Assembly: GCF_004362805.1 (NCBI RefSeq)
Contig: NZ_SNYF01000005.1
Coordinates: forward strand, 1,539,676 to 1,603,675
DNA length: 64,000 nucleotides
Direction of reading: 5' to 3'
Source of the DNA: Algoriphagus boseongensis
GTDB lineage: Bacteria; Bacteroidota; Bacteroidia; Cytophagales; Cyclobacteriaceae
The notes under the pieces were generated by a model. That model was given only the letters and a program-made list of their open reading frames with translations. It made no database searches and was not told the DNA's origin. A program made the translations under genes and the position numbers. Positions 21,208-62,086 of the stretch are shown here, in pieces. Within the stretch, counting starts at the first letter, position 1, and every line of letters starts with the position of its first letter.

Positions 21208-21239
21208 AGCACATCTTGAAGATCAGGGCGCTTTTTTTT
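21208..21239 (+). terminator. Possible terminator after the small membrane protein
   Basis: An imperfect hairpin (AGC outer arm, inner ATCTT-G-AAGAT stem, GCT outer arm) is followed by eight T residues. The last T abuts the left end of the GIY-YIG element. Confidence 0.45.
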
Positions 21240-21684
21240 GTCATTTCGACGAGGAGGTACGACGAGGAGAAATCTAAATATCAAGGAAATCCCAATTTGG
21301 GTTTTGGGAAGATATCAACCTCTCCTTTTTTTCTCTTCTCCAATTTTTTAATTCTTTTTCTCTTGAAATAGCCTCTTGGATCCATTGGAATTCCTCAAAA
21401 TAAAGTAGATAGAATACCTTATACCTACCACAAAAGGACTTTTTCCTATTAAATGCATCCTCTTTATGCTCAGCCAGCCTTCTTGCTAAATTATTTGTCA
21501 CTCCGATATATAAGACCGTTTTGGAAAAATTGGTTAGGATATATGTGAAATACATAAAAAATATAGTTATTCCTCTAAAATATAGGGATTTATAAGAAAC
21601 TATATGAAGTTTTTAGAACAGACTTCTCACATCGTGTAGAGTTTGTTTCCACCAAAAAGTATGATTCACTCGTTCGAAGTGACA
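21239..21684. mobile_element. REP-flanked GIY-YIG element
   Basis: A 446-bp segment whose outer ends are inverted: TGTCATTTCGACGA on the left and TCGTTCGAAGTGACA on the right. Each end is one REP-like unit (21239-21275 and 21620-21684), with inner ends AGAAATCT and AGACTTCT also inverted. The only gene inside is a 93-aa GIY-YIG nuclease whose stop codon overlaps the inner end of the left unit. Solo copies of the unit occur at 30755, 30836, 33134, 59601, 60544 and 62022. The structure is seen; mobility is inferred. Confidence 0.6.
21274..21555 (-). CDS. GIY-YIG nuclease domain protein (YhbQ/UvrC-type, stand-alone)
   Basis: A 93-aa single-domain GIY-YIG protein. The motif is FTYILTN...LYIGVTNNLARRLAEHK, so the first Tyr is preserved and GIY reads TYI; the catalytic Arg is in ARRLAEH and Glu in EAISREKELKNW. 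The family cuts DNA, and stand-alone members are common in Bacteroidota. The gene is bracketed by inverted REP-like units and its TAG stop uses the last two bases of one unit. This tight fit suggests the nuclease and repeats travel together. Confidence 0.88.
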   Translation of the reverse strand: MYFTYILTNFSKTVLYIGVTNNLARRLAEHKEDAFNRKKSFCGRYKVFYLLYFEEFQWIQEAISREKELKNWRREKKERLISSQNPNWDFLDI

Positions 21685-21726
21685 TTCAGACCGATATTTG
21701 TGATCCGATTCCGAGACCAAAGCAAA

Positions 21727-30191: not shown

Positions 30192-30970
30192 GTCTTAAAA
30201 ACACTTGGTCTGCAAACCTAAGGAAAGCTAGGAAATTATGAATTAAAAATTATGAATTGGGAATGAGGAATTGAGGAATCGGGGAATCGATGAAATGAGG
30301 AATCGATGAATTGACTAACCGAGTCATTGAGAATGAGGAATAAGTTTAAAGTTTAAGATGAGAAGCAACGTCATTGCGAGGAGCCTGATCCGAAATGATT
30401 TTTTATAGTTAGAATTTCAGGCGACGAAGCAATCTTTTGGTTTTGCATCATCAAACCTGAGCCTCCTATTTTTTAAAACTAAAAAAGCCCCGTAGGGGCA
30501 AAAGCTCGGTAGAAAAAAGCCCAACCTGCCAATTGCTGCGCTGGAGCACATTTTTCATTTGGAAATGATTTTCGATCCCAGCGCAAGGAATGAGAAGTTT
30601 AAAGTTTTTTGAATTGAGAATGAAGAATCAGGTATGTGGAATTGAGTAATTGATGAATCGAGTAATTGAGAATGAGGAATAAGTTTAAAGTTTAAAAGGT
30701 AAAGTTTAAAGTTGCTTTAATGAAGAATTCGGAATGAATACTAAAGTGTAAAATAGATTCCTCCTCAGCGGTGATTAACAAATAACTTTAAGGCTTTCGT
30801 GGCTTCGTCGAAATGACATCAGGGGCATGCCTTCATGTCACTTCGAACGAGAAATGCAGTACTTTCTTTTAGCGGGTATTTCGCTCGATGTAAGAAGTCT
30901 ATTAGCACCAATCCAAAACAAAAAAACCGGACAAGACCCTTGCCCGGTTTAATTATTAAATGCAAGAAAA
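30192..30970. repeat. Repeat-filled 779-bp spacer
   Basis: No gene is supported. Contents in order: GAATTGAGGAATCGATGAAT-type tracts (30240-30350), TTTAAAGTTTAA units, one long REP-like GTCATTGCGAGG...GAAGCAATCTTTT copy (30369-30438), further GAATTGAG tracts, and two inverted REP-like GTCATTTCG-family units (30755-30818 and 30836-30900). It forms the left border of the accessory module. Confidence 0.75.
30919..30950 (-). terminator. Rho-independent terminator of the 83-aa membrane protein gene
   Basis: On the minus strand, the stem AAACCGGGCAAG / CTTGTCCGGTTT (one mismatch) with a 3-nt loop is followed by a run of T residues. It lies 21 bp after the stop at 30971. Confidence 0.72.
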
Positions 30971-32716: not shown

Positions 32717-33230
32717 GTTATAGTTGGGTTTAAGTAAAACATGGGTGAAAATTGTAATCAAATAGACTGACTATCAATTGAATGTGCGGATTTTGCGTAA
32801 TCTTTGGATTAATGTTAATAATGCTTTTAAAGCAAGGGAAATAGGAATGTGGAATTGAGGAATCGGGGAATTGAGGAATCGATGAATTGAGGAATTGAGG
32901 AATTGAGGAATCGATGAATTGAGATTGAGGTATAAGTTTAAAATGAGGAGCAACGTCATTGCGAGGAGCCTGATTCTCATTGGTTTTTTAGTGTCAGGAT
33001 TTCAGGCGACGAAGCAATCTTTTGGTTTGAGGAATAATGCTAAGGACTACTTCCCTTCGATTTTTATCGGGGTTGCTTGCAGTGAAGCCCTTATAGCATT
33101 CTGGGTATGAAGACTGCGACAGTTCACTGGAATAGATTTCTCCTCAGCGCGGGTTTGAGGTTACAAATTTGCATCCCTATTGCTTCGTCGAAATGACATT
33201 AAGGCCATTTTCTGCACAATAACCTTTTGA
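32717..33230. repeat. Repeat-filled 514-bp spacer inside the accessory module
   Basis: No gene is supported. It holds GAATTGAGGAATCGATGAAT tracts (32852-32935), a long REP-like GTCATTGCGAGG...GAAGCAATCTTTT copy (32954-33023) and a REP-like unit of the GTCATTTCG family (33134-33198). It splits two related DUF6266-like genes. Confidence 0.75.
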
Positions 33231-59277: not shown

Positions 59278-59708
59278 AATAGGTGATTTTCAGCTGCGCG
59301 TTGTCGCACTTAGAACTTCCCGCCTCTCGTCGGTCAGGTGCTCAGGGTATAAGTTGTCCGCTGCGCTGTTGTCAAAGTTGTCGGGTGTCATGGGCAAGTA
59401 AAAGCTCTGAAGAGGGAGAAGGATGTTTGGAAGTAATTGGTAATTGATCAATGCTTCGCCCTTTCACTCCCACCCCCTAGGCCCCTTGAGGGGGAATTTT
59501 ACTTTACCCCTCCGTGAAGGAGTATTTAAACGGAAGATGGAAGCTAGCCTCGACTGAGTAATAAAATTACTCGGTTGTAGGAGAATTGCAAGGGGGGAGC
59601 CGTCATTTCGAGCGAAGCGAGAAATCTTCTGGGGAAGAGCATTATTCGACCTATGAGACCTTCCCTCAATTCTTTGGGATATGCTCTCTTTCGGTATAGG
59701 TGACTGGT
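59278..59708. repeat. Repeat-filled 431-bp spacer
   Basis: No gene is supported. It contains a G/C-run unit (CCCCCTAGGCCCCTTGAGGG near 59471-59490), a REP-like GTCATTTCGAGCGAAGCGAG copy (59601-59627), and runs of CGTTGTC/TTGTCCGCTGCGC-like sequence near 59296-59390 with no clear origin. Its last 20 bp join the GT2 tail repeat. Confidence 0.65.
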
Positions 59709-60543: not shown

Positions 60544-60570
60544 GGTCATTTCGAACGTCGTGAGAAATCT
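60544..60570. repeat. REP-like unit, GTCATTTCG...GAGAAATCT family
   Basis: GGTCATTTCGAACG followed by GTGAGAAATCT is a short copy of the unit that flanks the GIY-YIG gene at 21239. The rest of the 60501-60672 spacer holds a partial GGTCGAAGTGACTGGTTC unit. Confidence 0.7.
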
Positions 60571-62021: not shown

Positions 62022-62086
62022 AGACTTCTCACATCGAGTAAAATATACATTAAAAGAAGCTTCGGTTTTTCTTGTTCGAAGTGACA
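62022..62086. repeat. REP-like unit, long form
   Basis: Begins AGACTTCTCACATCGAG and ends TTGTTCGAAGTGACA, the same layout as the right flank of the GIY-YIG element. The spacer 61919-62167 also has TTTAAACTTTAAACTC tracts near 62110-62155 and no gene. Confidence 0.72.

Follow-up and report, generated by a model that had tools for sequence, protein, structure and literature searches.

A gene for a small GIY-YIG nuclease in Algoriphagus boseongensis lies between two inverted palindromic repeat units, and this locus is probably the gene-bearing copy of a GIY-YIG/REP element, whose nuclease would cut its cognate unit and whose units would be copied by host repair. We analyzed a 64,000-nucleotide stretch of the genome (the window) together with homologous loci in the genus and in other bacteria. 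We observed that inverted units are associated with these genes, that enzyme branches are paired with repeat types, that the stems of the units covary and that the units cluster locally. In addition, the element is present or absent at orthologous sites, and close copies of it are found at differing sites.

The window locus

The sequence-only reading had placed a 93-aa GIY-YIG gene between inverted REP-like units, with its stop codon overlapping the left unit, and had listed six further units without the gene. All of these features were recovered (Table 1). The stop codon (21274-21276) overlaps the left unit by its final two bases, and the six solo units all exist, including the two at 30.8 kb with the imperfect arm. 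The window units follow TGTCA[T/C]TTCGA...GAGAA[A/G]TCT; two inverted copies enclose the nuclease gene, and their GTCA ends point outward, so that TGTC stands at both outer ends.

Table 1 Features of the GIY-YIG/REP locus and solo units in the window.
Feature	Position in the window	Strand	Remarks
Left repeat unit, type T1	21239..21275	+	TGTCATTTCGA ... GAGAAATCT; stem ATTTC/GAAAT
93-aa GIY-YIG nuclease gene	21274..21555	-	ORF and PF01541 match
Right repeat unit, inverted	21620..21684	-	TGTCACTTCGA ... GAGAAGTCT; stem ACTTC/GAAGT; long loop
Solo T1-like unit	30755..30818	-	3' arm imperfect by eye
Solo T1-like unit	30836..30856	+	Adjoins the 30755..30818 unit; 3' arm imperfect by eye
Solo T1 unit	33134..33198	-	
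Solo T1 unit	59602..59627	+	Short loop
Solo T1 unit	60545..60570	+	Short loop
Solo unit	62022..62086	-	Resembles the right end of the element

With up to two mismatches, GTCATTTCGACGA matched seven times in the window against 1.28 expected, and at least seven matches occurred in 0 of 100 shuffles, indicating that the unit family is not due to chance. GAGAAATCT alone gave a weaker signal (five matches against 1.6 expected; at least five in 2 of 100 shuffles). In the whole genome (4.18 Mb), all six exact TGTCAYTTCGA sites are located at C1:1560914-1601761, within the window, and the reversed control pattern has no site. Since these six exact end motifs fall within 41 kb, the spread of the units looks local. 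A repeat search of the window did not list the left and right units as one inverted pair. A terminator scan found two terminators against 0.5 expected, and the result of a promoter scan was below chance.

We also noticed that the type-1 units at 30.8 and 33.1 kb have type-2 motifs (CGTCATTGCGAGGAGCC) a few hundred bases away, at window positions 30370 and 32955. The second REP-linked GIY-YIG copy of the same genome (G000:C1:1352215-1352466, L059) has a big array of such units (CGTCATCGCGAG/CGTCATTGCGAG) on its upstream side and none on the other.

The nuclease domain

The nuclease domain of the window protein is intact. The protein scored 61.9 bits against PF01541, above the cut-off of 22.6 for the GIY-YIG superfamily, and Y5, Y16, G18, R26, H30, E66 and N85 are invariant in 17 aligned members. 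We take Y5, Y16, R26 and E66 to be the catalytic Tyr, Tyr, Arg and Glu of GIY-YIG enzymes, a set that is kept in all 17 sequences. The AlphaFold2 model of the protein is confident (mean pLDDT 94.5). In a Foldseek search with this model the closest solved folds were UPF0213 (1zg2), Slx1, UvrC and I-TevI, none of which matched at E <= 0.001; 1zg2 and 1ywl were also matched by profile. The UPF0213 GIY-YIG domains, Slx1, the N-domain of UvrC and the catalytic domain of I-TevI thus have a fold in common with the window protein; unlike the window enzyme, none of them is paired with REPs in the descriptions that we found, as far as these were consulted. The classification of GIY-YIG enzymes in PMC1564403 does not, in the part consulted, tie the group of the window protein to repeats.

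Flanking units in the genus and beyond

A homolog of the nuclease is present in 56 of 72 genomes of the genus, A. boseongensis included. The genus set comprises 65 of the 68 listed places (E <= 2.7e-6), leaving out the contig-end places G024:C123 and G039:C108 and the second unit of a tandem array in G032. Four motif types were read from the flanks: T1, GTCA[TC]TTCGA; T2, GTCA[TC][TC]GCGA; T3, GTCAGNC[CT]GAGCG; and T4, CCGAGCGNNGTCGAGG preceded by GG or CA. Within 400-bp flanks, both sides of the gene carry a motif of matching type at 32 of the 65 places, a count that favours T1-T4 because the motifs come from those very flanks; by type, these are 7/7 for T1, 14/17 for T2, 10/14 for T3 and 1/6 for T4. 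At least one side carries the motif at 44 places, 16 of the remaining places lie directly 3' of a tRNA gene, and 5 have neither a motif nor a tRNA call. Among 290 control ORFs, taken from 20 regions of 20 kb chosen at random in these genomes, a motif type was found on both sides of none and on any side of 4.

In a scan of named genomes we took the best 80 of 570 loci. By their record titles, these 80 belong to Bacteroidota, Alpha- and Gammaproteobacteria, Acidobacteria, Verrucomicrobia, Planctomycetota and Fibrobacter, as well as Bifidobacterium, Clostridia, Leptospiraceae, Caldithrix and candidate phyla. Here we used a stem-agnostic motif, in which GTC, A plus four bases and GA are followed, no more than 45 bases on, by a perfect reverse complement of the arm. 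Such a unit is present on both sides at 42 of the best 80 loci (35 with a shared stem) and on any side at 60, with none on either side at 20. Controls in the named loci, more than 1 kb from the gene, gave 1/287 for both sides and 35/287 for any side, and the random genus regions gave 0/290 and 5/290 with the same motif. For Bacteroidota we counted 28 loci, as 2 more of the 30 were already in the genus set, and one of them (L188) is truncated at a contig end and wrongly placed; units are found on both sides at 20 of the 28 (18 with a shared stem) and on any side at 25. The association of small GIY-YIG genes with flanking palindromic units is therefore strongly supported, also beyond Bacteroidota, and the expectation that other copies of the gene would carry flanking units is borne out (32/65 genus places; 42 of the best 80 multi-phylum loci).

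Homologs were found on 32 plasmid records, and phage records gave no match to the nuclease. Units stand on both sides at 11 of 12 plasmid loci viewed by eye; among these 11, the downstream unit is atypical in one (L242), and three are the same Sphingobium locus. In a Planktothrix agardhii plasmid (p1, L248), a GIY-YIG gene with TGTCATTCTGAG units is located between an MmeI-like restriction gene and the DISARM gene drmA. In a record titled Alphaproteobacteria (L112), an 18-bp stretch, GAGCTGATCAAGAAGCTG, flanks the element on both sides by eye.

Pairing of enzyme branch and repeat type

Copies of differing types, assigned from their flanks, coexist in eight genomes (G000, G007, G019, G020, G025, G051, G056 and G070). 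In these genomes each copy adjoins one type, which matches the protein branch, the exception being a stray T1 unit beside the T2 copy L041. In the protein tree the T3 places form one branch, the T4 places form another, and the T2 places fall inside one larger group. Six of the seven T1 places are on one branch, and the window protein stands nearby in a larger open group.

The genome-wide motif count rises with the cognate gene for T1 (p 5e-7), T2 (p 1.6e-5) and T3 (p 5e-4) in one-sided Mann-Whitney tests on genomes at least 90% complete, which include gene-adjacent units and are uncorrected for genome kinship. With matches within 5 kb of the gene removed, T1 still gave p 5e-6, likewise uncorrected for kinship. 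Five of six cross-type tests were not significant; the sixth, T2 counts with the T1 gene, gave p 0.015, and a T2 gene is found as well in three of the seven T1 genomes. In a tree built from 172 proteins, of which 117 were labelled by stem, and with 85 of 169 inner branches open (poorly resolved), the stem label changes 47 times, whereas 300 shuffles gave 76.3 +- 2.4 changes and never fewer than 69. Outside the genus, it changes 38 times compared with 54.9 +- 1.9 (minimum 49; 84 rows). Inheritance in place also feeds this signal. Taken together, there is strong support for a distinct repeat type per enzyme branch in the genus, even where several branches share one genome. Farther afield this amounts to a tendency, since distant branches across phyla have one stem in common.

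Unit structure and layout

Among distinct 60-mers from the loci collected, where both arms could vary, the arms pair in 116 of 116 T2 units and in 130 of 133 T1 units, and two-sided changes are present. The T2 arms are ATTGC/GCAAT in 98 units, ACTGC/GCAGT in 12 and ATCGC/GCGAT in 6. The support for pairing comes from this covariation, because single window units fold no better than shuffles (z of 0.03, -0.29, 0.42 and 1.26, with the right unit taken as 21622-21686).

Neighbouring units are arranged head-to-head in 93 cases, tail-to-tail in 68 and in tandem in 51. The innermost units around the gene at 62 loci are oriented (+,-) in 28, (-,-) in 13, (+,+) in 13 and (-,+) in 8, showing that the bracketing seen in the window is the commonest layout and not the sole one; arrays are frequent. 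The units outnumber the genes: T2 genomes have a median of 17 T2 motifs, with one T2 gene in 13 of 15 genomes and two in the other 2, and G056 contains 94 T2 motifs and one T2 gene. The strict type-1 matches lie near the gene. All six of G025 are on one 49-kb contig, four of the five in G051 are beside the gene, and 13 of the 14 in G020 fall within 42 kb.

The tRNA-linked branch

A divergent GIY-YIG branch stands directly 3' of tRNA genes for Leu, Met, Val and Arg, as called by ARAGORN, and for Thr and Ala by eye. Its places are G000:C2:234372-235265 (L002, L005, L006), G000:C1:920450-921267 (L003, L004, L010) and 16 among L056-L079. In places we observed tandem units of ~345-395 bp in which the 3' end of the tRNA and its terminator are copied, and such direct repeats, of 26-122 bp, were found at 17 of 19 loci tested. 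By eye, the copied tRNA ends are broken up by short palindromes (CCCGATnnATCGGG-like and CCTGCCTG..CAGGCAGG-like), which are found in the loops of CGTC-type units too. The loci with these palindromes are L002, L004, L049, L056, L058 and L060, and also L021, L028 and L029.

Presence, absence and copies at differing sites

In Azospirillum lipoferum 4B, the gap between sufB and sufC contains the gene between two REP dimers, and the same gap is without the element in A. ramasamyi, A. oryzae and strain B510. In Sphingomonas parapaucimobilis (L257) a DUF559-domain gene fills this gap. In Sphingobium, the arrangement REP-gene-REP occupies one site in four aligned plasmids (of seven filled records). 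At that site TomTYG64 and TomTYG74 have one REP, no REP was seen in the alignment in TomTYG72 and TomTYG65, and in TomTYG73 the ORF is broken and unannotated.

We also compared 17 picked pairs of close ORFs by tblastx of their flanks, which often spanned only ~1 kb. Flank similarity was absent in seven pairs (L177/L179, L023/L028, L023/L029, L015/L016, L012/L013, L114/L136 and L032/L050, the last within one genome) and confined to scraps in two (L133/L136 and L113/L136). Seven pairs have their neighbourhood in common in place, and many further conserved places were listed. Movement is rare, because many copies are inherited at orthologous sites. The Flavobacterium loci L113 and L133 have ORFs that are 90% identical; the shared stretch stops at or a few bases from the outer GTCA ends, and a homologous segment next to the element is on one side in L113 and on the opposite side in L133. 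Another repeat of ~250 bp (L113:1879-2131) occurs once in L113 and in several copies near the L133 element.

Target duplications, which the sequence-only reading had named as a check on filled and empty sites, were not seen in two alignments (Azospirillum and Sphingobium) or in two 50-kb comparisons, so in these comparisons the elements lacked this hallmark of insertion sequences or MITEs. Where the gene is absent, the intergenic DNA at the site has often been replaced. The two 50-kb comparisons, of Sphingobium pairs, gave no clean junction for an exact repeat insertion, and in one case a REP dimer sits in replaced intergenic DNA. For the window site itself, 26 relatives had a kdsB match and 15 of them were viewed; the nearest relative, G022, keeps the neighbours and has a different ORF there, glyoxalase-like by reading alone, so the window site has no clean empty counterpart. 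Azospirillum and Sphingobium thus showed the empty-site polymorphism on which the proposed mobility had been made to depend, but many copies proved to be conserved at the orthologous position. The mobility of the GIY-YIG/REP element is only partly shown by these comparisons.

Discussion

The part of PMC3733652 (Di Nocera 2013) consulted defines CGTC REPs and states that a dedicated transposase is absent. These REPs and the units around the GIY-YIG genes both have terminal CGTC/TGTC, complementary arms and head-to-head dimers. The window T1 units differ in having an outer stem of 5 bp, long loops and no CCA tail, where the definition, as given in that part, has an 8-9 bp stem, a 4-5 base loop and mostly a CCA tail. 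By eye, the units at the A. lipoferum, S. meliloti and N. gonorrhoeae genes match the published CGTC architecture, and those of A. lipoferum and S. meliloti also have the defined stem, loop and tail. The GIY-YIG nucleases are the obvious candidate for the dedicated enzyme of CGTC REPs.

In the RAYT/REPtron system, associated with the names of Nunvar (2010) and of Bertels and Rainey (2011), an enzyme gene is reportedly flanked by palindromes on which the enzyme putatively acts. The window locus has the same layout, with the gene between inverted palindromes and many gene-less copies elsewhere, and it was this likeness that the sequence-only reading had drawn. RAYTs, according to the part of PMC3733652 consulted, are HUH tyrosine transposases linked to GTAG REPs, whereas the sole gene between the window units encodes a GIY-YIG domain. 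The parallel holds for the association and the cognate pairing, both strongly supported, and only in part for mobility. In the parts consulted, PMC9465073 does no more than include a GIY-YIG gene and a RAYT gene in a list of clade-specific genes, and the main text of PMC12306157 does not contain the words 'nuclease' or 'RAYT'. None of the titles and abstract openings that we found joins GIY-YIG enzymes and REPs.

A 2025 paper in Nature Communications by Chenal, Veyrier and colleagues reportedly describes Ssn, GIY-YIG site-specific ssDNA nucleases whose cognate sites are repeated in Neisseria. The meningococcal enzyme is said to act on a sequence with hundreds of copies, and homologs are said to have their own cognate sequences, the focus being cleavage and transformation. 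Like the window protein, Ssn is a small stand-alone GIY-YIG enzyme, with a relative among repeats in a Neisseria record. To regard the repeat family as undescribed was probably too strong, as the pairing of nuclease and repeat was apparently published there. Our point differs from that focus, and concerns bracketing by CGTC-type REPs, local arrays, several pairs per genome, and presence and absence of the element.

In the mechanism that we favour, the small GIY-YIG nuclease would recognise the hairpin-capable unit of its own subfamily (GTC-A-nnnn-GA...n'n'n'n'-T) and cut it, most likely as ssDNA during replication, transformation or repair. Host repair would then copy units, sometimes together with the gene, to sites close by and occasionally to distant ones, and the solo units and head-to-head dimers would be gene-less derivatives. 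The copying step is a conjecture, because GIY-YIG enzymes hydrolyse DNA and are not known to join it.

A serious rival, which we nonetheless regard as rather unlikely, is that an Ssn-like ssDNA nuclease has been domesticated. The repeats would then be recognition sites gating DNA uptake or recombination, kept or copied for that role and not mobilised by the enzyme. The gonococcal relative (38% identity over 85 aa) stands among CGTCATTCCCGC (dRS3-like) units, and this gene is probably Ssn; cutting of ssDNA at repeats and an effect on natural transformation have reportedly been shown for Ssn. In the part of PMC3733652 consulted, dRS3 is the Neisseria CGTC-1 repeat. The vertical inheritance of many copies is also in favour of such a role, but the bracketing of the gene, presence and absence at orthologous sites, close copies at differing sites and several enzyme/repeat pairs per genome look like selfish elements. 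A domesticated role need not exclude spread.

It is less likely still that the GIY-YIG gene is a homing-type parasite that homes into existing REP dimers spread by something else. The single REP in TomTYG64 and TomTYG74, where relatives have REP-gene-REP, is consistent with homing, and it was in homing endonucleases that GIY-YIG domains were first found (PMC1564403, part consulted). However, targets far outnumber filled copies, as in G056, the number of repeat copies depends on whether the cognate gene is present, and whole units rather than half-sites are found on both sides of the gene. A relation of gene-bearing and gene-less copies fits better than homing, because homing targets should fill and the gene-less units outnumber the genes. 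Passive hitchhiking, under which repeat-rich intergenic DNA would simply be where small GIY-YIG genes persist, is very improbable and was rejected: GIY-YIG neighbourhoods are indeed repeat-rich, as nearby controls carry units more often than random regions (35/287 vs 5/290 for any side), but the both-side rate is 42 of the best 80 loci vs 1/287 in controls, and the fact that enzyme branches match their repeat types within single genomes contradicts it.

CGTC-type palindromes are widespread small bacterial repeats, and the part of PMC3733652 consulted leaves their mobilising enzyme open. Our results suggest that GIY-YIG enzymes act on, and perhaps help spread, this very common class of bacterial repeats. 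With about even confidence, we propose more broadly that, for the CGTC REP superfamily as a whole and across bacteria, GIY-YIG (Ssn-type) nucleases may be the dedicated enzymes so far missing. Such nucleases would represent a second principle of REP spreading alongside that of RAYTs: a genome would have several orthogonal enzyme/stem pairs, spread would be mostly short-range by cutting and host repair, and one branch would use tRNA gene ends. A cognate enzyme with matched stems makes the CGTC REP question testable by one protein and a few oligonucleotides, and many natural enzyme/hairpin pairs of differing specificity are on offer, several of them inside one genome.
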